From: Bimastos eiseni
Taxonomy: Eukaryota; Annelida; Clitellata; Crassiclitellata; Lumbricidae
Length of the DNA stretch: 64,000 nucleotides
Direction: 5' to 3'
NCBI GenBank assembly: GCA_959347315.1
Contig: OY365814.1
Span: forward strand, 28,080,329 to 28,144,328
The notes below the pieces were generated by a model that did not search any database, was not told the origin of the DNA, and saw only the letters and a list, made by a program, of their open reading frames with translations. Each line of letters begins with the position of its first letter. Position 1 is the stretch's first letter. This document shows positions 4,300-46,800 of the stretch, piece after piece. The position numbers were made by a program, and so were the translations under genes.

Positions 4300-5592
4300 G
4301 AGCAGTTTCCTCATGCTCTTGTTCTCAAATGCTTGTATGTGTTTCTCTTCTTCTTTCTTTACTGTCCACGCCTCACAACCATACGTTGCTACTGGCCACG
4401 CCAAGGCCTTCATGAGTCACAGCTTGGTTTTAGTACTGACTGATTTATTCTTCCAGATGCTTACCAACTTAAAATGACTGACATTCCCATAGCTAATCTT
4501 GATTTTACCTCACTCGCGCAGTCCCCGCCCTTCGTTACTCGGTTTCCCAAGTATGTAAATGAGTCCACTTGTTCGAGTTTGTATCCGTCCACCTTGATCA
4601 AAAGTTCGACATTGTTATTTGTTATTAGTTTTGTCTTTGCTACGTTAATCAGCATACTGTATTTTTTGCTGATATCTCAGCACGTTGCACCAACTCCTGT
4701 AAATCCTCTGGTGAAGTGGCCAGTAGCACGATGTCATCAGCATATCTAAGGTTATTTAAAGTCTTCCCTCCAATTCTTAATCCCTTGTTGTAGTCTAGTA
4801 GTGCTTTTCGCATTACCTGTTCTGCCAGAATGTTAAACAGGCTTGGTGATAAATTACATCCTTGTCGGACTCCTTTCTTGATACTAAACCATGTCGACAT
4901 AATTCCGTCTGTCTCGACAGTAGCTCGTTGTTGTTTGTAGAGATTTCGCAATAGCTGAATGAGGTAGGGGTGGGAAACCCATATCCATCATGGTTATCCA
5001 TAGTTGATCGTGTAGAATCATGTCAAAAGCTATTGTAAAGTCAATGAAGCAGAGGTACAGTGGATGTTTGTCTCGCTTTCTCCAAGATGATTCTTAAGTT
5101 CACAATTTGATCTCGCGTGCCTCTTCTTGGCCTAAAGACAGCCTGTTCCTCAGCGATCTCTGTTTCCAGCTTGGTCTGGATGCGTCCCTGTATCACTCGT
5201 AACAAAATCTAACTGGCATGTGAGACTAGCGCAAATGTTCTGTGATTACCACAGTGAAATAGATTTCCCTTCTTCGGCATTGGAATAAAAATTGACTGTG
5301 ACCATTCTTCTGACCAATCCCCGATGTCCCATACGTCCCCACATATCTCGTGTAGTTTTGTCAGAGTCATTTCTCCACCAAATCTAAACAGCTCAGCGGC
5401 TACGCCATCTGGGCCTGGTGACTTCCGCATAGCTGCCTTCAATATGGCTCGTTTTATCTCTTCTTTTAGTGGCGGTGATTCCTTTTCTTGTATTTCGATT
5501 TTTATGTCTTCTTCATCTTCTTCATCGTTGTAGAGTCCTTCGCAATATTCTTTCCATCTTTGATTTACTTTTTCCGGTTCAACAAGTTTCAT
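4300..5592 (-). mobile_element. Non-LTR retrotransposon remnant (reverse transcriptase, frameshifted)
   Basis: On the minus strand several overlapping frames encode pieces of a LINE reverse transcriptase. In order: an upstream acidic segment, the fingers motif SPGPDG (about 5410), the first catalytic Asp in CFIDFTIAFD (about 5040), KKGVRQGCNLSPSLFN (about 4870), the palm YADDI box (about 4740), and a downstream segment (SFTYLGN, then a frame resembling the YGCEAWT / LRIPW region seen in many invertebrate LINEs). The frame changes at least at about 5000-5210, 4950, 4660 and 4460, and stop codons occur, so it cannot encode an active enzyme. The endonuclease region upstream is absent, consistent with 5' truncation. 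The clade is not resolved; RTE-like or Jockey-like are candidates. Confidence 0.85.
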
Positions 5593-5944
5593 AGTCCAGA
5601 ATACAGCGCTATATTAATCTTTTAATCAATGATGTGCGTTACTTGGAGTCAACGGTACACCTGCAAAACATCCTGATATTGATTGCATGCAAAGTAGATC
5701 ATGTTGGAAAGAGACTGAGCAGGCAGGTCACAATCAATTTTACCTTAAAAAGGTGGTAAACTAATTAGTGCAAGTAAAATCCTTTAAGATAGCTGAAATA
5801 ATTTATGGCGCAATCGCAGCAACGAAAGAGGCAGTAAATTGACACTAATTGGCGTCTTTCATATGTCCGAAGTTTGTCCGTAGGCTTGACTTGTATGTGC
5901 CTTTGAACGGAATGGGGGCCTTGTATGGCTGCCGACAGTTAAAA
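5593..5944. other. Non-coding interval
   Basis: No feature recognised between the LINE remnant and the GT-rich tract. Confidence 0.4.
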
Positions 5945-19023: not shown

Positions 19024-19175
19024 TCAGTAGCAGAAGCGCTCAACCATGTCCACGTCTTCGCAGCCGTGGATGCAGCACAGAGGAAGCAGATTATAGACCG
19101 TTCCTCCTACGGTTTGACGGTCCTGCATCTTCGTTGCCGACTATTTTAATAGGTCTAGTAGTCTGGTCCTTTTAA
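19024..19175 (-). pseudogene. Insulin/relaxin-like second exon, copy D, with in-frame stop
   Basis: On the minus strand an acceptor (atcacag) precedes a phase-1 exon of 152 bases. Its translation begins VKRTRLLDLLK, meets a TAG at 19141-19143, continues in the same frame, and ends in an intact A-chain-like segment LCCIHGCEDVDMVERFCY before TGA at 19024-19026. The cysteine pattern (CC, three residues, C, nine residues, C) and the E-D-x-D-x-V core match the intact genes at 23266-24945 and 27051-28558. The C-peptide part is about 40 residues shorter, and the multibasic site is eroded to TKMQ. No first exon was found in the next 1.4 kb upstream. I call it a decayed copy; the stop would need confirming, since without it the exon would be open. 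Confidence 0.7.
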
Positions 19176-20555
19176 CTGTGATGAAAGTGAACGCTGACGA
19201 CACCTGTACCGTTTGGCAACAGTACTGGCAGCTAATTTGCCGCGTGAATGGGCTAGGGCGACTTAGAAAGAGGCTAGAAAGCTAGTTACAACTAGCGTAC
19301 TGTTGTACACGTAGGATTTAAATTTTACGGAATATGAATATTATATGATGAATATTATTATTATTGAACTAAAATGAGTCGTGAGATAGTTACTAGTTTC
19401 TATTGCATTCGCCAGGTTGTCGCTTCAATATTCTAATTAAAATTCAGGACGGACTTGACCTGTGATCCAGTGGCCTTTTTAGTGACTTGACTTATAAACT
19501 GAGAAATCTTAAAAACCCTGCAAATTATAAAAAATAAATGTAAGAATCAGCCAACTAGATTATGTTTTATTATTATAGCGGATTAGACTGTTTAGATAAG
19601 TACTGTCTAACCTTTCTGACACCGAGGATCGCAGAAGACATTATTCTTGAAGCCGAGGACCACGCTAGTATAGAGCCTAATGAGAGGCAACGACCAGAAT
19701 CTCTTGATAATTATAGCTTATTAAAACGTATTTTGGATTTTGTCTTCATGACGACAAAATTACGATATGCCAAGTCACGAGCGAATAGGTAGAGCCGGTT
19801 CGTGGCATAGTAACATAACGAACCGCCAAGGGCCCACAAATTTAAGGGGCGCCAAATCTGACGAAAATAGTTCATTACCGAATAACAATTTTATGATAAT
19901 ACGAGAAATTATGAAATTGGATATTCAACAATTGTTCTAGGCTAATTCATTTTCCAAACAAAATATTCAATCCTCTGACACCTCAAACCAGCTCAGGCCT
20001 ACAACTGAAGTCATAACCTGTAAGGCTGTAACAGTCTTGTAGCTAGTTCTGCGAGACACACATGATATCTAGCTGCAAGAATCAATTAAACTTGATAGAC
20101 CTATAGCGCCTCCTCAAGAAATCTACCAGAGGCGCATTCAATATTACCATTTCAATATTTGAATTCGGCTCTCCTTGCTACATGGCACACAAGACAAAAT
20201 CTGTATTGGAGCTACCTGTCCTTCCCAAACTGTTTTCCTATGCCGGAATCGTTCTTATATTTTGCAGTTCGCTTTACAGTAAAGGTAAATTGCGACGATA
20301 ATTATGTGAAGAAGATTAGGAGACAAGATGACACGACTTCTGAAAGAACTGAAAAAATTACGAAGAATGACAATATTGTTCGATACTTCCCGATTAAGAG
20401 GTACATGCCTACAGGAACATCCACGAATGAAGGATGGTAGCAACGTGCTAAACGCAAATGATTCAACAGCTTAGCCAGAACAATATTTTGAACATTTGAA
20501 CATATTTTGAACAATACTTTGAACAATCGCGTGTCGTTTGATTGCATAGTGTCAC
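19176..20555. other. Non-coding interval
   Basis: No signal-peptide/B-chain exon and no other gene could be seen on either strand. Around 19790-19850 a gagccggttcgtgg...gggcccac stretch resembles a transposon terminus, but no partner end was found. Confidence 0.35.
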
Positions 20556-20557
20556 CA

Positions 20558-20971
20558 GAAATTGAAGGAGAAGGAAATTGAAGGAGAAGGAAATTGAAGG
20601 AGAAGGAAATTGAAGGAGAAGGAAATTGAAGGAGAAGGAAATTGAAGGAGAAGGAAATTGAAGGAGAAGGAAATTGAAGGAGAAGGAAATTGAAGGAGAA
20701 GGAAATTGAAGGAGAAGGAAATTGAAGGAGAAGGAAATTGAAGGAGAAGGAAATTGAAGGAGAAGGAAATTGAAGGAGAAGGAAATTGAAGGAGAAGGAA
20801 ATTGAAGGAGAAGGAAATTGAAGGAGAAGGAAATTGAAGGAGAAGGAAATTGAAGGAGAAGGAAATTGAAGGAGAAGGAAATTGAAGGAGAAGGAAATTG
20901 AAGGAGAAGGAAATTGAAGGAGAAGGAAATTGAAGGAGAAGGAAATTGAAGGAGAAGGAAATTGAAGGAGA
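20558..20971. repeat. Perfect 16-bp minisatellite (gaaattgaaggagaag), about 26 copies
   Basis: An uninterrupted, essentially identical 16-bp unit over more than 400 bp, strongly purine-biased on the plus strand. The 16-residue repeat in the minus-strand open frame follows from the 16-bp period and is not evidence for a protein. Confidence 0.97.
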
Positions 20972-22900
20972 CTCTTCAGCGAATGTTAATGGGCAGAAAT
21001 GTTCTGCAGCCCCCCTACAAACAAAATATTTGAGAGATTGTGTATTAAGTAAATGTCTTGCATATTCTACAGCAAAGAAGAGAATATTATTCTTCTGTTG
21101 CAAACTCTTAGGCAACATGTCCGGGAGCCGACGGCTTTGCGAAAGAAAAAATGCATTTGAGAAATAAAAGTGGCATCTGAAGTCTACTTTTGAATGGTTT
21201 GAGCTGGAAAACCGATTAAGAAATCAATGGATAATTATCAAACGAAACCAGAAACTAATAAGCAGTTAAAAGGCTAGCTGACATATTTTATTTGAACGGT
21301 TCATGACAATAATTATTATTCACTAGTTGCTGCTCAGGATAGTAATTAAAAACCTTTCATTTAGACTGTAGACATATGCTGGTTGCTGAGTATTCTAACC
21401 AACACAATCCTTTTTAAATTGTCTTATATACACATTCTGAAGCGAATCATGACTGAACTGTATTCATAGTAAAATGCTGGTATTAATAGTGCATCATTTA
21501 GCTAAACAGACCGCATTCGATATCTTTTAAGCGAACAGATTTCATAGCATGAACACGTCAAATAGGCCTACATTTCTGCAGACTTCTGCAACCGGTAGCA
21601 TAATACTTATGCAATGGCATTGCAAAAATCACAGCTGTTACTAACGAGACTTCTAGAACTCAATGCGAATAGTAAAACACTTCCCTAGACCGTCAAGGTG
21701 TCAGTTTCTCTAATAGAGTCACACACGTTCAGCTACGTAATCGTCGTCGCAGCACTTACGCAGCAGCTCGTAAACAGCTTCCCTGTATGTGAATTCTCTG
21801 CACCTTCGTTCCCTGAAAATTACACGCCCGCTGTATCCCACCTCTATATTATGAAGACATTTTTATAGTCAATAGTCATTGCAAGTGCAATAGATGTACA
21901 AGTCGCTCAACTGCTGCCAAAGACCTCGTGGAGACATGTTTAGAAGCGTGGTACATCGAAATACATTTTCAGATCAACCCGCTTCTACAAGGGCGAAGAG
22001 TTCTTGCAGTAGGTCTTAATACACTGCAGAAACGCAGGCTAAGCGACTCCTGTCGCTGCAACTTTGTCTTCGACCTACTCCTGCATATTTTATACTTACA
22101 TGCAAGGGCAATACTGAAGAGTTTCTGAGCGCTATTGACAGTGACTTCGTTCGGCGCCTTAATGAGGGAACTAGACATCGGGCCAAAAAGATAAAAACCG
22201 ATCTAGACGATTATACGCAGACCCACTGAGAGGGAGCCCCCAACCCGATAAAATGAAAAGGAGCCCCACCCTTTGAATATTTGTAAATTTTTTCTTTAAT
22301 TGTTAAAAAATTTATTAACAAAACACATTCGATTTTGTTAACTAGATTTCGATTTCTGATTAATTTGTTTTAATGAGTTAAATTCGTCTGTTAAATCCTT
22401 ACAAATGTTGGAATATTTATAATTTAAAATATTTTTATTCTTAAAAATTATGTATTTTATTCAATAAAATAACGTCACATTCTGCAACTCCATGCGAAGA
22501 GTCAAAGAATGCAAAACACGCTTGTGTGCTAGAGTAAAATGCTGGCGAGGTAGTGTATAGAACGTAATTTTTTTATTGCGACGTTTTCCTTAAAATTAGG
22601 AATTACAAATTATGAAAATATCATTTCGTCGGGGGCTGAGTGATAGTGATGAATGACGAGTCGTTGATAACTTTGATAAATGAGTGGTGTATCATGTAAG
22701 CTTACTGGTTGGAATTTTGCAAAAAATTTCATAGTACTGTGTATTACAGATTTACAGTTTACTGTCAATCAGTCTTTCATTCATGCTCAAGACTTTAAAT
22801 TGCACAGGGCCACCACTTTGCTCTCGACGGGCGGGAGTATCCGAACCAGCATCCACGAACAACAGTCTATCTAAATTGCTTCCGCATACGTTTCTCATCA
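20972..22900. other. Non-coding interval
   Basis: No gene recognised on either strand. The section 22250-22620 is very AT-rich. Confidence 0.4.
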
Positions 22901-23265
22901 GTTAGTTTTTTATATCCAAAATAATCTGCAGGTGTACAGAGTGCGGCCAGTCAGCTGTAGCTCATTCGATCTTCGTCCATCGGACGCCGAAGAATGAAAC
23001 CATTCCTCACCCAAGGCAAAATAAAATACGACGAAAGCTACATCAAATACTGTAACAACAACGTCGCTCTTAACAGATTCACAGCGTTTGGGCATCAAAA
23101 TCCACATCATATCGCGTTCATCGGGAATTGGCGCAGTATTGAACAAGGTCAAAGAAGTTACTATGCCTAATAGAGCATCATTTAAATCAATGTCTATAAC
23201 AAAACCAATTGCACATCGTCTTTGCACTCTTCTCACGCAGAGGTCCATGGATCAGAGCTCCTCGA

Positions 23266-24945
23266 TTAGACGAGGCACATGCGCTCAATTATGTCGTTGT
23301 CATTGCAGCCGCGATCGCAGCACGTACTAAGCAGCTCATAAACAGCTCCCGTGTCTCTGAAAGCCCTGCGTCTTCGTTCCATTCCACGACCACTCAGTCC
23401 CTCTCCAGCATAAGGAAGCGACCGGTCATATGTCCGTTTCTCCATATCAGACCGAGCTGCATCCATCTGCAAGTCCCTAGTTGACCGTAATTTCAGCAGC
23501 CCAACCAAATAAGCCGGGAAGTCTCCGTCCACTGAAAACAATATAAACACCCGTCAACGTTTAAGCGACAAGAAAACAACCTTATAGAAGGTTCCAATGT
23601 AGCAGCAGTCGCGGGATAGCCGCACAGCTGAAGTAAATGGACTGCGTGAGTTGGAGCGCAGGTTTCCAGACTTTCCAGGTATGTGTATTCAGTCGGTAGC
23701 GGATGAACTTCTGATGTGATGGAGATTAAGAATGGGATATTTCGCAGCTGGCTTCCGAGTTAGACGAACTAGAAAGTCAGTCGAGCATTCGGTAATTTAT
23801 ATTCGCCAGAGGATCATTTGAACCAACGGATGCTAGGTCAGCGGTGAACATCAGACTCAATTGCATCACCGAGTAAAACGTTTGCGTATATCATGAAGCC
23901 AAAACACAGGAGCACAACAATTACGAAGAGAACATCGCGTGTTCAATTCCAGGGTCTGCGTAACCCAGGGGCGTCGATCCCACCCTGAGTGATGCGAAGC
24001 AAACCCCCGGTCTCCAGTGTTAGGAAGGATAGATATTCCCTTAGACTAAAATATTATCCCATAAACGAAATTGGGGGCATTTGCCTCCGGACTCCCCCTA
24101 TGTGGACGTCCCTGGGGTAACCCCATGTAGCCGAATACGCAATTCGGAGCATTTCATGGAGCGCGCCTCTATAGGACTTCACGGAAAAATTGTGATAAGC
24201 GAACCACAGTTGGATAACCTAAGCACAAAAACAACGAAAATACGATCGCTAGAGACAGCCTCAACACAATCTACAAACCAACTTATTTACACACACGCAC
24301 AGCCAGATTCTTGCAAGAGGACAGACGCGGACAAGCAGACACAGGTAGACAGAAGGGCCATCAATTATAGTATGTCAGTGCCAGTGTCGAAATTGCATTA
24401 CAAAATTACATCACTTAACCTCAACTGGCCAATGATTCTGCAGCACGCAACTCATTGTTGCTAATACTCTTCGGACGCTAGATCGGGTCAAGGGCTCTAA
24501 AATCAGACTTTCAAGTCATTTTACACTCTTTGACGACAAATGCAGCACGTCCAATTATCTACAGCCGCACGTCATTAGCAGTAATTATATTAACAATACT
24601 GATACGGTTAATAGTATCGTCTATGACGAATAGACGGAAATATCCTCAAATTGGTGGATATATAAATCATCGTAACGAATGGATAATGAATTAATAAAGT
24701 CTACCTTTATTTTCAGTCAATGAAGAGGTCAGCGCAATTCGCTCAGACTTTAACGGTTCTTGAACATCGATGTCTCTGGCCACGGCTTTCTCCTGCAGAA
24801 ACCTTCGACAGACCTTGAAGTAGGTCACAAGCAGGTCCTTCGTTTCACAGATACGATACTGGAAAGCGTCGCTGGAGACGGTCACCGTCAGAATTCCGCT
24901 CAAGCAGACGACGAACATCATCGTCACCAGATTCATCTTCATCAT
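23266..24945 (-). CDS. Insulin/relaxin-superfamily peptide precursor, gene A (two coding exons)
   Basis: Coding exons 24945-24705 and 23531-23266 join across a phase-1 intron (donor AAAG|gtagac, acceptor ttttcag) to give 168 residues. Residues 1-25 are a hydrophobic signal peptide (MNLVTMMFVVCLSG). The B-like chain follows, with Cys33 and Cys46 in CETKDLLVTYFKVC and dibasic RR directly after. A C-peptide has an internal MEKR site. RRRR at 133-136 releases the A-like chain, with Cys151, 152, 156 and 166 (CCDRGCNDNDIIERMC). Signal-B-C-A order, six cysteines, multibasic site and a phase-1 C-peptide intron are hallmarks of the insulin/relaxin family. Spacing is odd: C-x12-C in B and CC-x3-C-x9-C in A, against 11 and 8. 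An acceptor (ttttgcag) 7 nt upstream of the ATG implies a separate 5' non-coding exon. Predicted secreted hormone; receptor and role unknown. Confidence 0.85.
23966..24114. mobile_element. hAT-type MITE in the gene A intron
   Basis: The left end is caggggcgtcgatcc. The right end on the minus strand is cagggacgtccacat. Flanking octamers gcgtaacc (23958-23965) and gggtaacc (24115-24122) match at 7 of 8 positions. The 149-bp body is C/G-homopolymer rich (cccccgg, ttgggggc) and has no coding content. It lies between exons 1 and 2 of gene A and is not visible in the gene B intron, so it probably inserted after the duplication. Confidence 0.8.
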
Positions 24946-25409
24946 CAGCACCTGCAAAAGATTTCAGTTTAAATTAATACTCTAAAAGAGCAAAGCAATG
25001 CGCTACAAAGGACCAGCCTAAAGGAACGCAGTTAAGTCTCATTCCGCTCTCCCAAAGCAACAGTCTTGACCTATACACATTTCCACAAGTCTGGACTCTC
25101 CTCCTTTTCCTCTTTAACTCCCAAGGCCAGTCAAAAATTTCCAGTAGATTTGAAATACAGTTTCTTCACTCTCTCAATTGCTTTCGTAGACTTTGCTAAA
25201 TGACTTACAGACTCGTCTGTGAAGTTAATCCTCGCTTGCAGACTAGATTCCGTTTTTCTATGTCGAACCCAACTACACTTTCATCTACTGCAACTCGACT
25301 GGCGTATAACATCTCATTAAGAGAGTTTTATAATAGCTGGCAGACCATCCCACAACAACAGATGCGCCGAGTTTCACCACCAACCCAGACATCCCATCCC
25401 TCATCAACA

Positions 25410-25462
25410 GGAGGTATATAATCTCTTCCCGCCAACTTCTGAACTGCAGTCATGCATGACAA
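25410..25462 (-). promoter_or_regulatory. Conserved 5'-flank element of gene A, possible promoter
   Basis: The word cttcccgccaacttctgaa followed by tgcagtca-gcatgacaaaa is retained in the 5' flank of both intact genes while sequence around it has diverged. In gene A a TATA-like word (attatata on the minus strand, about 25416-25423) sits just downstream. About 470 nt separates this from the coding-exon acceptor at 24952, room for a 5' non-coding exon and intron. Inference only; no start site is demonstrated. Confidence 0.35.
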
Positions 25463-25639
25463 AAGACTTAGCGCTTTTGCATATCTCTTTCTATCTGTCG
25501 TTGACAGTCTTCGTCTTCCTTGATATCTGCACTGTTCTGATTGCCTTCCTATCCATGACTTTACAATGCTACATGAATGAGTTCAGTTCAATAGGTCTAT
25601 CTGGCAACGTAACAGCGATCCAAAGAACTCTCTATGTGG

Positions 25640-25850
25640 CCAGATATATATATATATGTTTAATATATGTATATATAACTACGTGATATATATGCATACA
25701 TTGACGCATATATATACACACGCATATCTTTATTTATATATATATACATATATATATATGTAAGACAGGGGAGGAAAAGACACATTTACGTATATATATA
25801 CACGTATCTATATAAATATATATATATATATATATAAAAGAGAGAGGGGA
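25640..25850. repeat. (TA)n microsatellite patches
   Basis: Alternating atatat and acatatat tracts with a gagagaggggagg purine patch. The equivalent position upstream of gene B (29280-29330) also carries atatat plus gagaggggga, so the microsatellite predates the duplication. Confidence 0.85.
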
Positions 25851-26170
25851 GGAAAGAGACAAAGTTGTATAATTATTTGTGGCATAAGATCTGAATTACC
25901 AAATTGTCAGGCAACTTAGACATGTATATTGTGCATCAGTCAATATTGGACTGGCTCTGTATCTCGACAGACTGGCCTTCTGATTTAGAAATTATCGGCG
26001 AGATTCTCGCCGACGTTGAATAAAAAATGCGCTAGATAAATCCTGCCGCGTCTCCGGGAGACGGATTGCTTAATCCTATTTAGATTGGTGGCTCGAGATT
26101 GGCGCCTTAATCCTATTGAAGGTCTCAATTTTTCAGGTTACTGCATGCATAGCATTCTTTAGACAGACCG

Positions 26171-27050
26171 GAATTCTAGGTACGTAGAACTTAGAGCGAT
26201 CTGTCCAATCCTGAGCTTATTTATAAATGCGTCTGTTGATTTATGTATTTTTAAGAGTATTCAATTTATGAAACTCTTCAATTTTAACGGATAGGCCCCT
26301 CTCCTAGCTCCTAAAGACGTCATTTCTCTCGGTGCTTTTCGCACTGGGAAGTTGGGAACACCTGATTAGGTTAAACTTTTATAAACACCATAGAAAACGG
26401 TTATACAAATACAAATTTCGTGTACGAAGTCTACAGGTTTGCAGATCTTAAGCGCATTACTTCCGATAAGTCGTTACTATACAACGGATCAGAATTCCCT
26501 TTTACCAGAGTGTGGCAGTTGTTCGCTTGAAACCATTCTCAGCAGGGCCACTGGACTCCCGTTGAACTGTGCAGTTCCGTTGAACTGTGAAGTTGAGTAA
26601 AAATCAGCTACATATGCTTAGGCAGTGGTTTTTATTTTCGGTGCGCTACTTCACGGGATGATAAAATCCTGGAAGACAAAACCTCCATCTTGACGAATGC
26701 ATACCCTATATCATACCTTTAACTATTTAGTCAAATAAATTCTTTTAACAAATTTAGTTTTTAATAGATATTTTTACATTGCTTGATTTAGCAGAGGTGA
26801 ACAGTTCGCATTCGCAATTTTATAGCGAGAAACGTAAACATGACATGCGTGTAAGCTACCGAACAGTACATAAGAGCCTACACGGCCGAGTTAAGTCTTT
26901 GGAACCGCTAGCATACGCTACAACATTGAAAGCGTTCAAAGCTGTAACTAGGCCTAATGGAAAATTATAGAACTCTGCGTCCATGGTACCAGTCGTCTAT
27001 GCACTCTAAAAGTTCAGAGCAGAGGAGAAATGATCAGCCTCGTCGATTAT
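26171..27050. other. Spacer and 3' flank between genes A and B
   Basis: No gene recognised. From about 26780 the sequence begins to resemble the 3' flank of gene A. Confidence 0.4.
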
Positions 27051-28558
27051 TTAGCTGCAAAATAGTCCAATTACGTCCTCGTCTTCGCAGCCGTCTTTGC
27101 AGCACTTTACGAGCAGTCTGTAAGCAGATCCCTTCTCCACTGCGCGTTGAACATTCCTACGTTTTCTTTTATTTATCATTCCACGATCATTCGATCTCTC
27201 TCCAGTGGACGGAAGCGACCAGGTGTCATCTGTTCGTTTCTCCATACCATACAGACCTGTATCAATCTGCAAGTTCCTGCTCGCCAGAAGCTCTAGCAGC
27301 CCAACCAACGAAGCGGACTCTGAAAAAAAAGCAACGAAATGCGTGTCAGCGTCTAATAAAGTAAGTAACTTAAAACGCTTGCATGGTTCCCGGTTTTGGG
27401 TCTCAGGAAGTGGGTAGTGGATTAACTGTTTCGAGATCCTGGAATTTCAAAAAAAAAGCTAGACGAGCACGACATTCAGCAATTCATTTGGGTACTAATT
27501 TTCATCAGAGGGTCATTGCGCCTCTGAATAGGTTGTACTGTGATAGGCGTTTTATAAATCCGTAGATAGAATAAGATAAAATAGAATTGCAAGGATTCTG
27601 CACGTACCATAGGCCAGCGGTGTTAAGATTTTTATTGCATCATCATGGGATAAAAATAAATTTTTTGGGTCAAAGCACCCCAGTGCGATATCCCCTTACC
27701 ACGAAGGTAATATCGCAAGTTCAGCCCTGTTTGAAAACCGCAGCCCTATAGGTTGCACAGTGCGTACCAAGTGGGTTACTAACATTAGCCAAATAGTTGC
27801 TGAAAGGATGTTAATTCATTAGGCTAAGTAAAGTGAAGTAGATTTTTTTTTAAACACGCAGACTACAACGACGATATGTTTAACGACGGCCTCAACACAC
27901 CAAGCCAACCTAGCTATAGGTAGCTTTGTAAGAAGACAGACGCGGGCAAGCAGACACGTGTAGTGAAAGAGGGAACAGCGAAAGAGGGACCAGCGAATCG
28001 AGTCTGTCACCGTATCCAGTGACCCTATGACATAACGCCACACAGGCACTCTATCAGAACTCAACCCAGGATATATTCATTCGCCAACCCTTTTCGGATA
28101 TTCTGGTCAAATGCTCCCAACATTCATCGAAATTCAAAGCCCACACTTCGATCATTCAATTTACACGTTTGTCACAGCTCTATAATACGGCTTCTGGACT
28201 AAACGGGCTTGGCTACATCCAAACGTCTTAATCAGAGGTTGGGTCGAGAGAAATAGCTTCCAATTGGCGCTATACAAATCATTGTAACTAATGAACAACG
28301 AATCATATACGAGTGACGACTACCTGCATCCGTTAATGAAGAGGTCAGCATCGCTCGTTCAGACTTCAACGGTCCTTGAACGTAGATTTCACTGGCCACA
28401 GTTTCCTCCGGCAGAGACCTTCGACAGACTCGGAGGTAGGTCGCAATCAGGTCCTTCGTATTACAGAAGCGATAGAGGCGACCGACCCCGTTAGATGAAC
28501 CCATCAACAGAACTCCACTCAAACACACAACGAAAATCATCATCGTCACTCGATTCAT
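27051..28558 (-). CDS. Insulin/relaxin-superfamily peptide precursor, gene B (two coding exons)
   Basis: Coding exons 28558-28324 and 27319-27051 join across a phase-1 intron (donor GCAG|gtagtc, acceptor ttttcag) to give 167 residues. Residues 1-22 form a signal peptide (VTMMIFVVCLSGVLLMG). The B-like chain has Cys32 and Cys45 in CNTKDLIATYLRVC, then RR. The C-peptide keeps an MEKR site. KRKRR precedes the A-like chain with Cys151, 152, 156 and 166 (CCKDGCEDEDVIGLFC), and the precursor ends FCS. Cysteine positions equal gene A to the residue, including C-x12-C and CC-x3-C-x9-C. The preceding exon acceptor (aaatcttctgtag) matches that of gene A. Gene B is a tandem paralogue of gene A, with strong amino-acid divergence outside the cysteine frame. 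Expected product: secreted two-chain peptide; physiology unknown. Confidence 0.85.
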
Positions 28559-29061
28559 CTCCAACGGCGGCAACACCTACAGAAGATTTCAGTTTTAATA
28601 GACACTTTGGAACAGTAATACAAGAAACGGCAAAATACTTAACCTAAGAGTGCGGTCAAATCTACCTCCGCAGAGTCCGTTCTTTCTATAAAACCGAATA
28701 CACATTCTCCGCCAGTCTAGCCACACCTCCTCTTCCACTTATAAAGCAATACTCTCAAGGCAAGTCTCTCCACTGTATCAGCACCTGAATGAGTTTTAAC
28801 AAGACTTGTCACTCTCTCAGTCGCTTTGCTAAATAATTAACTTCCAAAGTAATTATTAACAAACTTGCCTTTGACGTTAATTCTCGCTGTAGTCTAGATT
28901 CCGATGTTCCACGTCGAACCAAACCAGACGTTCATCTGCCCCAACTCCATATGGTACATGACGCCTTGTGAAGGGAACTTTATAGGGAGCTACCCATCCC
29001 CTAACAACAGATGTGCTAAGTTTTACCCGCCAATCCAGACGTACCATCCCTCTTCAACAGA

Positions 29062-29112
29062 GGCATCATCTCTTCCCGCCAACTTCTGAAATGCAGTCAG
29101 GCATGACAAAAA
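29062..29112 (-). promoter_or_regulatory. Conserved 5'-flank element of gene B, possible promoter
   Basis: Matches the element at 25410-25462 over cttcccgccaacttctgaa plus tgcagtca-gcatgacaaaa. No TATA-like word is present here, unlike gene A. If functional, this difference could separate the expression of the two paralogues; that is inference. Confidence 0.35.
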
Positions 29113-29718
29113 CTTTCCTCTCTACGCACGCTCTCTATCTGTCTGTGTTCTGCTCTTTGTCCTCCTCAGTAGCTGCGCTGATTCCTTCCTAGCCATGGCA
29201 TGCAGAACTACACGCATAAGTAAGAGCCATAGCTGGCAAAGTAATAATGGGACAAATAACTCACCCTGTGGTCACTGCATAATATATATATACATATATA
29301 TATAATATGAAGAGAGGGGGAGAGAGACATAGCTATGTACGTGGTTACTGTGTCTTCTATATATGGCATGCATATTTTTGCGTGTATAGATAAATATATC
29401 ATAGTTGCTAAATTATGGCATACGGTAACTTAGATGATACATAGCCACTCTTGCACTGGCTCTCCACCTCGATTGACTTACCTTTTGGAGTTTGAAGTGA
29501 TCTGTGGCGTAATCGGAGACGCTCAATCCAAACATGCGCTAGATAAATTATGTGCAATAGCATCGGCTGGCTCATGAGGTTCACCTGTACTGCAATGCTT
29601 GGTGACCTAATCTTATGGAATGCCTCGAATCTTTGTTGCTCTAATGCATATTTAATGTGGTCTATGCATGCAGATATAATAATATATCCTAGTGTCCTAC
29701 TCCGTTGTACCTAAGCTG

Positions 29719-29945
29719 CAGAGGTGTAATAAGGTTTTTAAAAGAGGGAGGGCATAATTTAAAAAATATTGCGCGAAGCGGAAAAATTTATCTCAACAAA
29801 AGTCATCTTTAAAAAAATTGGAGAAACATAAAAAGAACCGATGTGGGGGAACATGGGGGGCACTGGGCACTAAGACTGGCGGGGGGGGCTTTGAAACTGG
29901 GGGGGGGGGGGGCCGGTGCCCTCTGCCCCGCTTGTTACACCTCTG
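29719..29945. mobile_element. hAT-type MITE with G-homopolymer core
   Basis: The left end is cagaggtgtaataag. The right end on the minus strand is cagaggtgtaacaag, 14 of 15 positions matching. Flanking octamers ctaagctg (29711-29718) and ctaaactg (29946-29953) match at 7 of 8. Near 29880-29915 the body contains long G runs that may be hard to sequence accurately. No transposase. Confidence 0.8.
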
Positions 29946-29954
29946 CTAAACTGG

Positions 29955-31859
29955 ATTATTTATCCACAGCATGAGCAACACCTACAAAATATTTCCCTAC
30001 ACTTTAAAACTTTTGAATATTAACACAAGACATGACAAAATCTTGTCCTATTCAGATCTTATAAGCGCCTGTCTTAGTTATGCTGTTCCCACTATATAGA
30101 GACCCGGACCGCATCCTCAGCAAACTTATGAAAGAATATTATTATCAGTTATACAAAGTCTATGATTTTTGACTTTGTCGATGTAATATTACGGACATGC
30201 ACTTAATTACACCATTTTAATTTCCACTTCTTCAGTCATCTTAATAATTATTATCGTAGGCCTTTCTCGTAACTCGTTGCACTAGATCACACCCACTTTC
30301 GAAGATGAAATGAAGAAGAGCTCGCCATGATTTTAATGGTATGCGGATCCTTGTCCAAAGACTATGCTACACAGAGTAACAGATTATAGCCAATATTTTA
30401 CAAAGTCCACCACTTGCTCTTGCAAACTACTGCCGCTGGTCCGACATCATTGAAAATTCGACAGCCCTGGTCGGAGGGGCCATGAACGCTGAACCTAGGC
30501 GACCGGAATTGATCTACATAGGAGCAAGGAACTTTTTCTCGGTCTACATGTAGTGTAACGGAACGGGGCCTATTCAACAGTGACCAGGATGACGACTTGC
30601 AGCCCCGTCCGATATGGGGGTAGTTCGAGTTGCAGTCCGCTAAGTAAGGCTTCAGTGGTTTGCTGAAGACTAACCATTTAAGGTTTAAATAGCACCTTTC
30701 TGGATGACGCTTGGAATAAGACACGCTTGTTCGATAATCCTCGTTTAATGTACAACGGAAAACAATACTTCTGTAGCGCCCATTCGGAAACTTGATTGCG
30801 TGATCTCAAACATCTGCTGGCATTAGTATAGCGTAATGTAGATCTAGTAAAATTTCTCAGCGAACCCTATATACTTCCAGGACCAATTGGGAAAGAGTCT
30901 AGAAGGGAAGGAGGCGAGAAAGATAGAAATGAACGGTTTGCGAGGCGAGGAAGCACAGAGCTGGAGGAAACGAGTTCGCGGTAAAGAAGTGTCAATGGGA
31001 AAGGTCTCAGAGAGTAGAGGATAGAATAGGTTTGATGGTGGAATGGTTTGGTCGGGTCTTTCGAAAGATCCGAATAGCTCAAATTCTGGCCATGGCCAAA
31101 ATTGGCGTTGACAAGTCGGACTGCATGACCAACTCGGCCGTATATAGTACAAACACCGCCATCGGAATGAGGAGAGTCAAAACATTTCATGAAACCGATT
31201 ACAAAAGGAAATTGCTTAAAATCTTGGATGACTTTATACAAGCATCCAAATCGCATCCGAAGGCGACATTTTCCATGAAGCATATAGACGTATACTGGAG
31301 GCGCTATACAACCGTTCAATTAGAATATTATCTGGAACTTCTAAACATAACGCCACGTTCTATCCTACATTTCGACATAAGTCAACTAACCTCTTGCTTC
31401 GAGAGTAAGGATATCGTCAGCCGACAACGACTAGGCCTACAGAAGTCATGAATGAAAAATCCAATTTTCGAAAAGACTAGGATTAGTTGCATGATAAATT
31501 TCAAGAGTCAAGAGAAAGAATCGACATCGTAAACCACAGGATTTCAACAATTCAGCAATTAACACGCCAAACGGAACATTTAATTACCATACGTCCGTCC
31601 ATCGAAAGCCAATTAAACCAGCCAACCAATAATATCTTTATCTAGATAGGCCCTATAAAGTTCACAGAAAATGAACATTGAACAAATGGCAGAAAACATC
31701 TCCAGTCGTTGGCATATCCTACAGCTAAAGCATTGGAAAAATTTCACAGCTTTCGCCCAACAGAGACTTCCAGAGATCATGTCCCCGGCACAACTTGATT
31801 GAAGATCAACTATCTCCTAGCACAGAGTTCAAAGGTCAAGAGATTGGCTTCTAAGCTAG
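29955..31859. other. Non-coding or unrecognised interval
   Basis: The longest frames (30398-30724 minus; 31032-31451 plus; 30867-31319 minus) overlap on opposite strands. They lack recognisable domains, signal peptides or paired splice sites. I cannot support a gene here. Confidence 0.4.
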
Positions 31860-32138
31860 TTACATGTAATAGCAGATGCGTTCAGCGATCTCCTGGTCAT
31901 CGCAGCCGAAAATGCAGCCCATGTATACGAAGCGGATTGCAATGCGATCCCTGCGGTCTGATCTCCCTGCGTCTTCGTTCCCTCGTCATTCCGCGACCAC
32001 TCGATCCATCTGCAGCGGAAGCAAGCGACCGGCCATCTGTCCGTTCCTCCATATCCAACTGACCTGCGTCCGTCCGCAAGTCGCTACTCCTCAGCAACTC
32101 TAGCAGGTTAACCACAGAATCTGGCTCGTCATCGCCCT
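31860..32138 (-). pseudogene. Insulin/relaxin-like second exon, copy C, frameshifted and missing an A-chain Cys
   Basis: On the minus strand an acceptor (ttcccag) precedes a phase-1 exon homologous to exon 2 of genes A and B: NLLELLRSSDLRTDAGQLDM, then EERTDGRSL, SGRGM and RERRRR. After the multibasic site the frame is shifted by one base (46 nt where gene A has 42). In the shifted frame an A-chain-like segment continues to TAA at 31860: GCIFGCDDQEIAERIC. The first Cys of the CC pair is Gly (TGC to GGC), which would remove one half of the intrachain bridge, and MEKR is MEER. Intron-like homology continues to about 32300, but no first exon lies where genes A and B predict it (about 32635). Most likely a truncated, dying copy. 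Confidence 0.75.
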
Positions 32139-37800: not shown

Positions 37801-40800
37801 TGACATCGGCATTGTGTTATTATGTCGACCTTCGACCTCATTATGACGTCACGTCTCCAGAAGCCGACGCCTTCGGTCATTTCTTATTCATGTTAGTAGC
37901 GAACGATCCATCAGTTTTGTTAAGCTCCATTTGCTTTGATGTTTTCAATGCAAATTTTTGGAGCCATAGTTGCTGTTTATTTTAAACAAGGAAGCTGTCA
38001 AAGACTGACAACTGAAGCATCAGAAGTAATTACAAGTAAAGAAGATATTAACGTTTTTCATCATCATAATTGTTTTTGCATCTGCTTTATATTGAGAGTC
38101 TCTCGCAGTATGATGTTTAGTTTCATTTATAATTATTAGTACAATATAGATATTGTTACAGGCACCTGCTTGGTTATCTGGTAAAAAGTTGGTGAGCATT
38201 ATTAGTTCATCTGAGGTTGACGTGTGTAATTTTTGGCATTGCTTATAGCGTCTTAATGAAGGCTCTGAAAATTTTAGAAAAATGTGTTCCATGTACCTGC
38301 ATTCATTCTGAGTGGGTTACTGTATAAACATTTAAACCAAAACCTTTAGATAGTTGCTTGATATAATTCACTGCTCGTATTGTTGTTATTATTATCAAAT
38401 TTGTGACATGCACACAGTCACACCAAAATGTGAATCTGAGTCTGGGATGGCTGCCACAAGATTTTAGATGTCCTTGTGCTTGAAAGCCATGGAGAAGTAG
38501 TGAGTCTTGAGCCACATTTTGAAGGAAGTGAATTTGAGCTACAAAAAGAAAGTTGCAGTGAATTCCTTGAGAGCACAGGCATGGAATGCCCCAGATCCCA
38601 TGACTATTCTGCATCATGGCTTACCTAAAATATCTGTACTTGATGATTGCAGGCCGCAATGAGAGATGTAATTAGTAGTGATTGAATGTAGTGAGGTGTG
38701 CTGCCCTGAGGGCTTTGTAGGTAAGCAACTGACATTTTATTTTAGTTGACAGGTGCTTCCAATTTGTTAAGTGCTGCGAGTCATTAGATTAATATAGCTG
38801 CTGGATTAATGCCGATAATTAGGGAAGGTTAATGTTGATGTAACACACAATTTAATGACCATGTATACTGATTTACTGCTATGGCTTTTATTTGTGCAAT
38901 TGAAGCATCACCAGCATTGGCAGCCGATGGGGTCTATTTTAAATTCCCACAAGGTGAAAATCTGAAAGAGTAGAAAGTTAAACAGTTGTTGAGTGGGTGA
39001 CATGTGAGATGCAGGCACTTATTATCTGCACAATTCACAATTAGTCATTATACTCTGTCCGATGATGCACAATTGGTGGCTGGGGTGTCGAATGGCTTAG
39101 TCAGTAGTCACCCAATTCGTACACTGCGATATGTGTGATCCTTTTAGATGCATTTGACATCTTGTTAATATGTATCAACTCTCAGAGACTTTGGAAAGTA
39201 GTTATTCTGTATTTATCCTTTTCTGGTGACTGTTGGCTGTGTAAATGAGTAATGAGCCTCAGCATCACTCCAAGAGACAGAAAGTGCCCATTTTAAGCCA
39301 CATGGCTGTGACCAAGCAGTTGCTTAAACCAATCTGCTTCTTTGGTCTTATTTAAGGGATTTGATGATTGGATTCATGGCCTGGATCTGACCCTTTAGTA
39401 CATACCTTTCAAGTAGCCCTCTGATGACCCTAGTATTAATAGATGATGATTTTCATGGGAGCAACAAAGATTGCTGGAAATCTCAGTGTTACTTAGCGAA
39501 TATCATACCACTAAAGTCTTGGAGATAGAGATATACTAGCCTGTTCTGATCTCAATGTTATATGTTGCACAGATGTAAATTCCTTAATGTAAAATTCGAA
39601 TGTTGCAACAAAAAAGATTGATTGGTTCCTTTTGGGATCTAGTTATATGAAGCTGTGAACATGATGTTATGTGTGCATAGGAAATGTCATAAAGACGCCT
39701 TTCAGCAGGTCTGGCCTATCTGGCATTAACAACTGCTTTAGCCTTATCGTGTCGGCCATTTTCTTACCGTAACACGAGGTTTCTGTGTAATGACTAGTTA
39801 ACGTCAGATAACGATGTGATGACATTGCAATGGGAAATTAACTGATGGATGGATGTTTATTTTGATTTTATAGGGAGTGTTCAAGATTGGTGCTAGGGAT
39901 TGAGTTTCATCATCTGAAAAGCGACGACTCCTACAAGTGTGCATTCAAAGGTGCAATCGGTGACGTTTATCGGAAGCTGCAGGACTACGCGATCGGTCAG
40001 GTCTTCCTTGTTCTAGAGTGGCTGATGGTGAATCAGTGGAGTCATCCGACTCTTGTCGCCATGATGAAGGGCGAGGACATCGATAAGGATCGAGGTACGT
40101 GGCAGTTACCGTGATGTCAGGGGCGGCGATCCCGGGGGTCGAGGGGGACATGTTTCCCCCCACTCGTTATACATTTGTCTCCCCCATATTTCTTATTATT
40201 ATTAAGTTGAAGAATACTTAATAAAAGTAGAGTACAAAAGTACAGCACAAAAGCAGAATATAAAAGTATCATTGGGTGTCTCCCCTCCTGTCAAACGAGA
40301 TCGCCACCTGTATGTGATGTGTAGTGGTGCACACACATCCCCCATCCATCCTCAGAGTGATGGTAAAGGAGTGGATTTGTGTTGATTTAAAAACATTGCT
40401 GCTTGGTGTGACTTGAAGTCTAGAAAATATGTTGTGTTGCCTTTAGGTTTAGGCTATTTAGCATGAATGAGTGGTTTATTTAAGGTTTATTTAGTGGGCT
40501 CTCTGAGTTTGTGGCAAAGTATTTGGCAGGCCCTGCTCCACGTTTCTGGCGTGCATAGTTCTGGAAATCTGTGGGAACTTCATATAGGTTTCCTGGTCAT
40601 GCTCAGGTTTCAGGTGCACCTGAGCCATCCATTAAGCCTCTGAAAATCCCATGATAGAATAGGATGTGAATCTTGAAGCTCACTGCATTACTCTTAACGG
40701 TTTGCATTGTTGAATGTCCTCTTAAGTTACTTTTGTACTCAGTTATTTTTGTACTCTACTTTTGTGCTCAACTTTTATTTTCTACTTTTGTGCTCTACTT

Positions 40801-43800
40801 TTATATTCTACTTTTATATTCTACTTTTATATTCTACTTTTATATTCTACTTTTATTTTCTACTTTTGTGCTCTACTTTTATATTCTACTTTTGTGCTCT
40901 ACTTTTATATTCTACTTTTATATTCTACTTTTATATTCTACTTTTATATTCTACTTTTATATTCTACTTTTGTTCTCTACTTTTATATTCTACTTTTATA
41001 TTCTACTTTTATATTCTACTTTTATATTCTACTTTTATATTCTACTTTTGTGCTCTACTTTTATATTCTACTTTTATATTCTACTTTTGTGCTCTACTTT
41101 TATATTCTACTTTTATATTCTACTTTTATATTCTACTTTTGTGCTCTACTTTTATATTCTACTTTTATATTCTACTTTTATATTCTACTTTTGTGCTCTA
41201 CTTTTATATTCTACTTTTGTGCTCTATTTTTATATTCTGCTTTTATATTCTACTTTTATATTCTACTTTTATATTCTACTTTTGTGCTCTACTTTTATAT
41301 TCTACTTTTGTGCTCTATTTTTATATTCTACTTTTATATTCTACTTTTATATTCTACTTTTATATTCTACTTTTGTGCTCTACTTTTATATTCTACTTTT
41401 ATATTCTACTTTTATATTCTACTTTTATATTCTACTTTTATATTCTACTTTTGTGCTCTACTTTTATATTCTACTTTTGTGCTCTATTTTTGTATTCTGC
41501 TTTTGTGCTCTACTTTTGTACTCTACTTTTATTAAGTATTCATCAACTTAATAATAATAAGTTAGTAATAAATAGTTAAGTGCAATTGATAATTGTTTTG
41601 TTAAGTGTGATCGATGATTGTTTCTAGTTGTAAGTGATGATTGTTCTCCAAGTGTAATTGACGATTGTTTTCTTTGATTGTTTTCTAATTGTAATTATCG
41701 ATGACTGTTATTTAATTGTAATCGACGATTGTTTCCAGCGCTGACATACATTCGCAGTGGTGAATATCCGGAGTTGTTTCGTCTGAGAGTTGAGATGCTC
41801 ATGGAAAGCGGGTGTGACAATTTCGCCTCCAATCTCGTCGGTTGGTGCACACAGAGTCCGCTATTTGAAAACGACGTCCCGTTGCGCTCTACTCACTTGC
41901 TTCTTCTCCACAAGCTCGGACGAAACGAACAATTACATAGTCAGGTGAGACATTCACAATATCTGCCTGGCTGATACAATGACCTTCGATAGTATTAGCA
42001 TCCGTAGACTTTAGTTAGTTGCGGTTTAAGGACACTGTCATAACGGAGATGAATAACATTGCTCGCCTCCTTTCTCCAGGCTTACGATTGGCATGGCTGG
42101 AGTACGAGCAATTACTGAGTTCTTAGTATATTATTCCTTTTTTCTGAAAATAGGCTATTTTTCTGAAAAGTTAATTTCTACCATTGAATTTCTGATTCAA
42201 CATGAAAGATTTTGGCAATGTGTATCATTTAGATAAGAATATGCTTCTATGACTTTGATTAGTCATTTCAAGTAGTCTCTTCTTAGTACCTCTTAGAAAA
42301 TAAGTATGTCAGACTTTTGCCAGTTTAGCGGGGCATGTATGAGTTTGAACACTTTCTGAGACTATACTGTGCAGTGAACATTGGTGAGTCGAGTCCACTT
42401 AGGATTGCTCAGCATCAACATGTGATTTTTGGTCACTAGATAGTGAGTAGAACTTGAAAAATGCTTAATAAAACAATGTATACATATGAGTTAGTGATCT
42501 TCAGGTTTGTGATTAGTAATTCTCAGACTCTCAATTGTCATTTTGGATTTACGTTGTGCTGATATTTAAAAGGCATTTGTTATTCGTTAAAAATATTTGT
42601 TAGCTCTGAAAGACCTATTTTACGATATGTTATGTTTGAGACAGAATGACGTTATTTTATGCTTTGTACTTTCAATTTGTTTGTTAAATGAGGGAACAGA
42701 GTCAAATATTAATAATAATAGGTTAGTAATAAATAGGTAATCTTTAATGGATTAAAACAACTTTATGTTATCTAATTGAAAATTGTATACAGCACTGTAT
42801 GAAGTGTATCAGTGCGACTATACTTACTACTTAAGAACCTTAGTTGGGAGGTCCTTCATTGACTATCCTGATCCAATTACATCAATTTTGTATAGAGTTT
42901 AATTATCTTTCAGACAGTAATAGGTTTTGACATTTCTGAATATTTTGTAGATTTTATTTCAACCACATGTTGTGAGAAGTGTTTTGTTTGTGTGTTGCAT
43001 AGTGTTGTCAGTTGAGTTGCTGCGTTGCTAAGGAGATCCTGAGGCACCTGACGATGCGATCAGAAGAACCATCATTTCTTCTGCTCATGACCCAAACATT
43101 TCTCCTTCTCAACTGGATAAAACCTGGTGATTTCTGCTGTACAAAGGTCAGTCTGTAACCTTTAATTTTGAGTGAAAAGCCCAGTCATCTGTTTAATCAT
43201 TTGATGATGAACTGCATGCGATGCCCAGTCACTTTTAGTACATGCTCATCGTTAAAGGATTAAGCCACTCTGATATGTATGAATGTAGCTCTTCATTATG
43301 TGAAATTGGCGGTAGATTGTCACAGCTATCGATCAGAATGTCCTCTTAAGTTACTTTTGTACTCTACTTTTGTGCTCAACTTTTATATTCTACTTTTGTG
43401 CTGTACTTTTGTGCTGTACTTTTATATTCTACTTTTGTGCTGTACTTTTGTGCTGTACTTTTGTGCTGTACTTTTGTGCTGTACTTTTGTGCTGTACTTT
43501 TATATTCTACTTTTGTGCTGTACTTTTGTGCTGTACTTTTGTGATGTACTTTTTTACTCTACTTTGGTGCTCTACTTTTATACTTACTTTTGTGCTGTAC
43601 TTTTGTGCTCTACGTTTGTACTCTACTTTTGTGCTGTACTTTTATATTCTACTTTTGTGCTCTACTTTTGTGCTCTAATTTTGTACTGTTACTTTTTTTA
43701 CATTACAAGTGCCTCACAGACATTGACTGCCTATGTACTACAGCTTTTGAAATGTTTGAATGCTCTCTACTATCTATAATTTTACTGCTTAAATGCTAGT

Positions 43801-46800
43801 TGTTGATGCTGGTTAATTAATATACTTCTATAATTGAATTGATGTGCAATAATCACCAAAACTTAACATTTGATATAACATACAGCCGTCCTGTTCATCA
43901 TAACAAGATGGCATTGTGTGATTAATTAACATTGTTTAAAGCTATGTACCTATTGAGAGCAGAAGACAAAACAGTGGACATTATAATATTATGCAGTTAG
44001 GTAGTTTCTTATTAGTTTCTAATCAATCAATCAATCATTTTTCTTTTAAGTGGGTTCTTCCATTTGCTGCAATATTGATTGTTCTGTTTAGGAGCTTCTG
44101 GAATTCTGGCTGACAGTGCAGCATCAGGGAGAACCGGAGGTGGACAAATTCCTTGAAAGCATCAACAAGGTCGTCGTCCTCACCCAGGACATTCGCCAGA
44201 TCACAATATTTCTCGAAGTCATGGTCTCGCTGGTGAGTAGCTCTTTACGGAACTCTTTGTAACAGAGAGACCTCTGTACATTTTGAGATAAAAATGAAGT
44301 ATTTTTTTATGACTTTTTTGGCTATGAGCTGCATAATTATGCATAAATTATGAACAGAACTTATTTCAGATCTGTTTTATGTCTGAATTGTCTTTCGAAT
44401 CTATTTCTTTCAGATTGTTTTTCCACTTCAGCCGGGTATTTCCTGGAAGCATGACTTTTGGTTGAAGTAATTTTATGTGGGAGATATTATAGGACTTTTC
44501 TTCTGTTTCAGTTTGAATCAAAGTTCATCCAATTCTGCACAGAACTGGCCCTGACGTCACTTAGAAAGGAGAGACATCGTCTGGATATGGCACGCGAATG
44601 TCACAAAGATGAAAAGGAAATCGAAGAGGCAGCCAAGAGCCTCGCTCAGATATGTCGCTTGGTTGCCCAACTCTATGTACACCATTCGCAGATGCATCTC
44701 GTAAGTGGTGCTGCTGTCAGAACCTTTTGTATCATTTGTCTTGTTGACTGAATGTGTGTATAATATGTGCAATGTATGTGTGTCTATTCATGTGTGTAGT
44801 CATGTGTGTAGTCATGTGTCTATTCATGTGTGTAGTCATGTGTGTAGTCATGTGTGTATTCATGTGTGTATTCATGTGTGTAGTCATGTGTGTAGTCATG
44901 TGTGTAGTCATGTGTGTATTCATGTGTGTAGTCATATGTGTAGTCATGTGTGTATTCATGTGTGTAGTCATGTGTGTAGTCATGTGTGTATTCATGTGTG
45001 TAGTCATGTGTGTAGTCATGTGTGTAGTCATGTGTGTAGTCATGTGTGTAGTCATGTGTGTAGGCATGTGTGTAGTCATGTGTGTAGTCATGTGTGTAGG
45101 CATGCATGTGTTGCAGTAAACCTAGTAATCTTATCTAGAAACTGTTTTTCTACTTGTAACCAGTATATGCGTAAACTTTTGCTACACTATGCTACATCCG
45201 TAATTGATTACTTATCGCTGTATTGCTCCATCTTCTCTCACCAGTCACACATAACTTTTCATTCTGTGTTAATAGGTAAGTAAGAAACATTCTTAAATCA
45301 AACATCTGCAAACGCACAACATGTACATAAAAATTACAAATATAATCAATAGTATCCATTTGCATATTGTAAGAAATTTTTTTAAGCATATAAGATGTCT
45401 CTATTTTAGTTGTATTATCTATTTAGTGACATCATTATTTTGAAGATGATTCATATCATGACCTAAACACGTAGAGAGTTATATTGTAACCCAGGGTACG
45501 GGAATATTGTCGGTTTCGTGTATTATAACGTGAAACTCGAAAGTTGAATTTAATAAAATACTGTTGTTGGTTTATTGTAGGCATGTCTGCTGACCATCCT
45601 ATACTTGGAGCCAAACGACACAAATTACTTTGTCATGGAATCTTATTTTCAAGATGCTGCTGATGTTCCCTCTGCCGAAGCCCAGCCACCTGTCTCTGTG
45701 GATCCTCATCACTACAGGGCGGTCCTGGAGACAGTGGAGGCGCTCCGGCCATTGAAATTCCACCCCAAGTTTGGCTGGAAGGAGGTGAAGCTATCTGCCC
45801 TCAGCCACCTGGAGGACGCAGGGTACAAATTTGACCCGGAAAAGAACGCAGTTGCTGGAGTTCTCGACAGGAACCCTACAGGAAGAGGGAAAGTCTGCTT
45901 CCGCCTGGTAAAACCGGTGAAGGTCTCAGCCTACGAGGTGTCGCCGGAGCATGACGCGCTCCACGACAGCGTCATTGACGGCTTCTGTGACGGGATCGTC
46001 GCCAACGACTTGGACATGACGAGATACGGCAGCGGTGCCAATGTTGAGGCTTCCGTTCATTTCACGCTTCCGATGTCTATCCAGGACCCTGCTCATGTCC
46101 TGAACGAGCTGAAATCTCTCGACAATGTGAGGGACACAGGAGGCGGAGCAGACAGGTGGTCGAGCAACGGGAGGGCGTCATCACTACCCCTCTCCCAGCT
46201 TTCTAGTCATAAACTGGTCACCTTGAGCGAGGATTCGGCCTCTTCGATCTATCAGCAGCAAGCGCTCAGTGGATCGTACCCGCTCGACGGGATCATGAGC
46301 TTTCCGCAGCTGTCCACCGGTCACCCGAGCGTGACGAGCAAGATGCATGCTGGGTTCACACTCGACGACATCCAGCAGGTGCTCAGCGCCACTCAGACTT
46401 CCTGCGACGGAAGCTCCGCAGGCGGAACCGACATTCCGATGGACGAGAGGAAACTGCGTGAAATAACGGCCTTCCTTCTCGGAAGGCATCCGGATGGCAT
46501 GACTACCACGTTTCCCGTCGGGGTCTATCCATCCGCACCACCCCCACCTCCGGCACATCCACCAATTGGCAGCACCGGTGTCACTGCCCATCCGTCGGGA
46601 AGGCACCAGGCAGATGTGGCGCCGGAAAGCGGCTGCGCTTCGTCGGCGGCGTTCGCTTCTGCGGAATCGGTTCTACCTCACACGAGCCAGTCGGAAGATA
46701 TGCAATTCAACATACCATCGTCCTATTGTTCTTCTTCATCTTCATCCTCTGCCTCTTCATCCTCCTGTGGCTCCTCTGCATCCTCCCAGAAGGAGGCAAT

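Follow-up and report, generated by a model that had tools for sequence, protein, structure and literature searches.

A divergent family of probable insulin-superfamily precursor genes with widened cysteine spacing in the earthworm Bimastos eiseni

Introduction

Can genes that a standard insulin profile misses belong to the insulin superfamily? The question is raised by a 64,000-nucleotide stretch of chromosome 9 of the earthworm Bimastos eiseni (C9:28080329-28144328, hereafter the window), on whose minus strand two genes, A and B, encode candidate precursors of two-chain peptides, with a B-like chain, a C domain and an A-like chain. Because of the gene structure, the cysteine order, the processing sites, the core residues and the presence of paralogues elsewhere in the genome, we consider that this divergent family of putative hormones very probably belongs to the insulin superfamily. 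It is best read as a fast-evolving subfamily, possibly restricted to its lineage. A sequence-only reading had assigned both genes to insulin/relaxin; on the grounds just listed this is supported at the level of the superfamily, whereas the cysteine spacing is non-canonical, the relaxin motif is absent and PF00049 gives no match.

Results

Gene structure and genomic relatives

Two two-exon genes had been proposed, with junctions at 24705/23531 and 28324/27319. Both junctions proved exact: each intron runs in phase 1 from a GT donor to an AG acceptor that follows a pyrimidine-rich tract, and splicing yields uninterrupted products of 168 (A) and 167 (B) residues, 55% identical to each other. The two-cysteine B-like chain, the multibasic site and the four-cysteine A-like chain were likewise seen in both genes (Table 1).

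The genome (660,451,143 bases in 118 contigs) was searched with gene A as the only query, which makes the number of intact copies, four, a lower bound. Thirteen candidates were scored and 12 of them matched: six in the window, three elsewhere on chromosome 9 (C9:28184101-28188435), two on chromosome 15 and one on chromosome 8. The three on chromosome 9 include the intact gene C, which is inverted and lies about 40 kb beyond the end of the window. The intact but divergent gene D, on chromosome 15, has a strong donor (an exonic T followed by GTAAGT); its acceptor, which was picked to fit the reading frame, is preceded by a weak pyrimidine tract. The chromosome 8 match (E 3.18) was dropped, no insulin-like frame having been seen there.

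All four intact genes, on two chromosomes, have a phase-1 GT-AG intron within the C domain, and in all four the cysteines follow the same order, two in the B chain and four in the A chain on either side of the C domain. A multibasic site precedes every A chain (RRRR, KRKRR, RRRR and RREKKK in A to D), and RR or KR stands immediately after the second B-chain cysteine in each gene. Read by eye, the N-terminal start of the four precursors is hydrophobic, as a putative signal peptide would be.

Table 1. Features of the divergent family and of comparison genes. Positions without a prefix are those of the window; prefixed positions are chromosomal.
Feature	Position	Strand	Description
Gene A, coding exon 1	24705..24945	-	Putative signal peptide, then B-like chain (C-X12-C-RR) and first part of C domain; phase-1 GT donor
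Gene A, coding exon 2	23266..23531	-	Remainder of C domain, then RRRR site, A-like chain (CC-X3-C-X9-C) and stop; acceptor TATTGTTTTCAG
Gene B, coding exon 1	28324..28558	-	Putative signal peptide, then B-like chain and first part of C domain
Gene B, coding exon 2	27051..27319	-	C domain, KRKRR site, A-like chain, stop
Gene C (intact)	C9:28184107-28184341 joined to 28185717-28185997	opposite to A and B	171 residues
Gene D (intact, divergent)	C15:22380148-22380304 joined to 22381382 onward		129 residues
Gene A, upstream block	25200..25400	-	TATAAAA and, from its conservation in B and C, a probable 5' untranslated exon
Gene B, upstream block	28844..29100	-	TATAAA and probable 5' untranslated exon; 90-95% identity to gene C (100-base windows)
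Decayed copy E	19024..19128	-	A-chain stretch only, four A-chain cysteines kept; tblastn piece 19030-19104
Decayed copy F	21719..21838	-	End of second exon, CC kept, third and fourth cysteines gone, ends at stop; tblastn piece 21722-21838
Decayed copy G	31872..32138	-	Second exon, frameshift, one cysteine of the CC pair gone; tblastn piece 31872-32130
Ordinary insulin-like peptide gene	C11:29152315		Found by PF00049
Ordinary insulin-like peptide gene	C17:19347185		Found by PF00049
Ordinary insulin-like peptide gene	C8:6090121		Found by PF00049
Ordinary insulin-like peptide gene	C3:11603468		Found by PF00049

Cysteine geometry and core positions

The four intact genes share one spacing, C-X12-C in the B chain and CC-X3-C-X9-C in the A chain. 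The A-chain pattern occurs three times in the six-frame translation of the window, each time in a family copy (A, B and E), a count reached in none of 60 dinucleotide shuffles (mean 0.03, maximum 2). Extended by a preceding Y-x-LL, a longer pattern picked after the copies had been seen, it did not occur in any of the 60.

When positions are numbered backwards starting at the final cysteine of either chain (A2 and A3 from A6), with human insulin as the reference, the eight positions equivalent to the insulin core are hydrophobic or aromatic in all four genes, with Leu, Leu/Ile, Tyr and Val at B11, B12, B15 and B18 and Leu, Leu, Ile/Met and Met/Phe at A2, A3, A16 and A19. By this count, the extra residue of each chain would lie near the B7-A7 and A6-A11 bridges. 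Three of the four A chains read CC-x-x-G-C.

Profile and database comparisons

A match of the two precursors to PF00049 had been put forward as a check. It was not found; two spliced ordinary insulin-like peptides (ILPs) of the same genome pass the same search. Run over the whole genome, PF00049 gave no match at E 0.001; at E up to 10 it gave at least four genes, all above the bit cut-off and none from the divergent family. Only four candidates were scored in that search, and 14 control genomes gave none. The spacing, one residue wider in each chain, explains why a standard insulin search misses the family. We treat PF00049 as a detector and not as a defining feature, because other variable members pose a similar difficulty: gonadulins are described in passages of PMC7357564 as highly variable and hard to recognise. 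The same passages note differences in cysteine spacing between some of the insulin-like peptides.

Elsewhere in Pfam, PF03488 (Ins_beta) was the only match of gene A (E 0.024) and the top match of gene D (E 0.017), both below threshold, and genes B and C had no match. Among exon and B+A pieces, Ins_beta alone appeared, again below threshold, in the two pieces of gene A that contain the A chain. NCBIfam gave no match for gene A and one chance match for gene B, and Rfam gave none.

A profile of the four genes was then aligned with a profile of the four ordinary ILPs (hhalign). Eighteen A-chain columns fall in register, through the third A-chain cysteine (P 0.0023), and the score of 25.85 was reached by none of 200 column shuffles (best 20.4) and none of 200 cysteine-fixed shuffles. 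Against the Protein Data Bank (PDB), a profile built from the A chains of five copies returned four matches at E up to 10, namely candoxin (0.14), the A chains of INSL5 in second (0.44) and third place (0.52) and a phosphate acetyltransferase (1.8); with the same E limit, the sequence of precursor A returned nothing. Two word-based searches covering 5.8 billion proteins, which reach only proteins that share short exact words with the query, gave 1578 candidates for genes A and B, none at E up to 1, and three for gene D, none at E up to 10. No paper on insulin with 'CX12C' was found in the open PMC text.

Comparison with known insulin-like systems

The four ordinary ILPs carry eight cysteines, one extra per chain, spaced C-X11-C and CC-X3-C-X8-C. 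Like the divergent family, they are ordered B-C-A over two exons and share its A-chain register, and three of the four have a phase-1 donor after the B chain. Unlike it, they match PF00049, have CG after the B cysteine and all bear an aromatic residue after the last B cysteine (GYN in three). The B chain of the family, in contrast, would have no tail if cut at the RR or KR after its last cysteine.

Several established types were considered and set aside. Canonical insulin differs in spacing (12 and 9 in all four genes, not 11 and 8), and mollusc-type (MIP-like) eight-cysteine ILPs differ in cysteine number, the four genes having only two B and four A cysteines. The spacing of vertebrate relaxin is one residue shorter than that of the family in both chains. 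Its B-chain motif, RxxxRxxI/V (given in part of PMC551602), is absent from all four B chains as read. Dilp7, according to sections of PMC11863921, is marked by an additional intron, in phase 2, that separates the signal peptide from the B chain; it does not fit, since both parts lie in one open exon in all four. The asterozoan multinsulins share clustered, multiplied copies in one genome; in the portions of PMC8286064 that describe them they typically have four coding exons, their additional introns being in phase 2 and phase 1, against two coding exons here, and octinsulin differs in cysteine number. Nematode beta-type insulins (PF03488) are the best Pfam match of A and D, below threshold and over about 20 A-chain residues, and come from a different phylum. 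The relaxin/Dilp8 (gonadulin) type shares with the family a two-chain plan with six cysteines, a C domain interrupted by a single coding intron in phase 1, and fast sequence change.

Selective constraint and the upstream region

Whole-gene ratios of nonsynonymous to synonymous change (dN/dS, NG86) are below 1 for every pair: 0.66 for A-B, 0.58 for A-C, 0.55 for A-D, 0.42 for B-C, 0.60 for B-D and 0.43 for C-D, all as estimates with no significance test. Genes B and C are 96.6% identical over coding exon 1, compared with 65-69% in the stretch just upstream. At silent sites the two exons differ, with dS of 0.08 in exon 1 (28324-28558 vs C9:28184107-28184341) and 0.36 in exon 2.

Farther upstream, A, B and C share conserved blocks (Table 1) with a TATA box and, probably, a 5' untranslated exon and intron; all three genes also have an AG immediately ahead of the start codon. 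An intron in the 5' untranslated region would fit the two-intron layout of vertebrate insulin genes.

Decayed copies

Three further copies, E, F and G, were found by tblastn of genes A and B against the window and were read in three frames as they stand. Two decayed second-exon copies had been described before; the count in the window rises to three with copy F, which had not been listed and which the genome search did not recover. Copy E is an intact A-chain stretch with no upstream precursor. With both first exons as queries, tblastn found no first exon in the window besides those of A and B. Another decayed second exon lies at C9:28188271, near gene C, bringing the decayed total to four. 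Between copies E and F, at about 20560-20990, stands an array of a short TTCAATTTCCTTCTCC-like unit.

Discussion

We propose that the intact genes encode precursors which, after entry into the secretory pathway, would form three disulfides and undergo cleavage at the multibasic site ahead of the A chain, and probably also at the dibasic site right after the second B-chain cysteine, so as to release a two-chain peptide hormone. This proposal is drawn from sequence features, as is the placement of the family in the insulin superfamily.

Several observations weigh against that placement or against function. Each chain has one residue more than canonical insulin (C-X11-C; CC-X3-C-X8-C) in all four genes, none of the four spliced genes matches PF00049, and the B-chain pattern C-X12-C-[KR][KR] taken alone is within chance (two seen, matched in 9 of 60 shuffles). 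The hhalign probability of the ILP match is 12.6%, and the best cysteine-fixed shuffle comes near the real score (25.5 vs 25.85); therefore, much of this match is the cysteine pattern itself. The INSL5 matches are not significant and stand below candoxin, an unrelated protein, while the full-length profile of the four genes found no insulin in the PDB, only two unrelated matches (a lin-37 homologue, 0.72, and candoxin, 8). Locally, dN/dS rises above 1: 1.07 for the A chain of A vs B, 2.11 for the signal peptide of B vs C, and 2.06, 2.21 and 1.26 for the C-domain piece of exon 1 in comparisons with D, on 10 codons each. Moreover, coding exon 2 of B and C is 82.5% identical, below the 3' flank (93%), and their first 250 intron bases are 92% identical, so that DNA conservation between B and C does not simply track exons. 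Conversion tracts between B and C may play a part. The similarity of their first exons may reflect either gene conversion or hidden constraint, two causes that are inseparable here.

The low identity of exon 2 relative to its flank gives more weight to the view that all copies, A and B included, are functionless decaying relics, a view to which the four decayed copies also lend themselves. Against it stand the intact frames and splice sites of four genes, a whole-gene dN/dS that is below 1 for all six pairs and a first exon far better preserved between B and C than the sequence just upstream; it is the least probable of the explanations considered. Scarcely more probable is convergence, in which secreted, cysteine-rich proteins with no relation to insulin have come to resemble it. 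The lack of a curated profile match above cut-off, a B-chain pattern that chance can supply and the rank of candoxin above INSL5 in one PDB search would all suit convergence, which would nevertheless have to bring together, in four genes, a phase-1 intron, the cysteine order, a processing site, core hydrophobic residues and an A-chain profile match.

Two explanations within the superfamily carry more weight. The stronger, which we hold to be a real though minority possibility, is that ordinary annelid ILPs, ligands of receptor tyrosine kinases, have drifted, with one residue inserted per chain and the function of eight-cysteine ILPs. Insulin-like peptides are known to multiply within single lineages, and Veenstra, in excerpts of PMC8286064, argues that the variable multinsulins are receptor tyrosine kinase ligands; the match between the profiles of the family and of the ordinary ILPs also agrees with drift. 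Three features common to all four ILPs are nevertheless missing from the family: an additional pair of cysteines, CG following the B cysteine and an aromatic residue beyond the last B cysteine. Slightly less probable is an annelid orthologue of the gonadulin/Dilp8/relaxin type, a ligand of RXFP/LGR3 receptors, expanded in earthworms. Relaxin/Dilp8-type genes have a single phase-1 coding intron, as the family does, without the phase-2 intron of Dilp7 (sections of PMC11863921, which lists Lumbricus terrestris among 31 proteomes searched), gonadulins are variable enough to go unrecognised (passages of PMC7357564), and CC-x-x-G-C occurs in three of four A chains. The vertebrate relaxin motif is missing, however, and the single phase-1 intron is not decisive because GSS and octinsulin genes have the same layout (portions of PMC8286064).

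For the family read as a fast-evolving insulin-superfamily branch, our best guess at the receptor, held at about even chances, is a relaxin-type LGR, a G protein-coupled receptor, and not an insulin receptor kinase. We lean this way because the predicted B chain would end at its cysteine and lack the aromatic-bearing tail of the four ordinary ILPs and because three of the four A chains have a relaxin-like CC-x-x-G-C appearance.

More tentatively, and against our own expectation, the genes could form an undescribed subfamily with coupled one-residue insertions beside the B7-A7 and A6-A11 bridges, a B chain that ends at its last cysteine, a receptor of its own and quick expansion and decay in earthworms, perhaps serving as a reproductive hormone. 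If true, this would amount to an alternative geometry of insulin.

Hormones of the insulin superfamily are usually sought with profiles tuned to fixed cysteine spacing. A family that has retained one extra residue per chain in four genes, spread over two chromosomes, suggests that such profile searches undercount these hormones and that coupled insertions are tolerated by the fold. The predicted peptides could be synthesised and tested, both for annelid endocrinology and for the switching of insulin-like peptides between kinase and LGR receptors.

Other features of the window

Broken reverse-transcriptase-like open frames at 4464-5613 (minus strand) look by eye like the remnant of a long interspersed nuclear element. 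Two related minisatellite arrays (40744-41532 and 43352-43696) yield long repetitive open frames. A large C2H2 zinc-finger protein of 1872 residues is encoded in a single open frame at 45605-51223 (plus strand); its residues 960-1460 are 87% identical to protein P0001, and this 501-residue query is 79% identical to a Helobdella robusta protein over 29% of its length. Open frames at 39866-44748, judged by eye, may be more exons of the same protein. An exon of the NAD(P) transhydrogenase beta subunit (PNTB, E 7.4e-35) lies at 62598-63095 on the minus strand.

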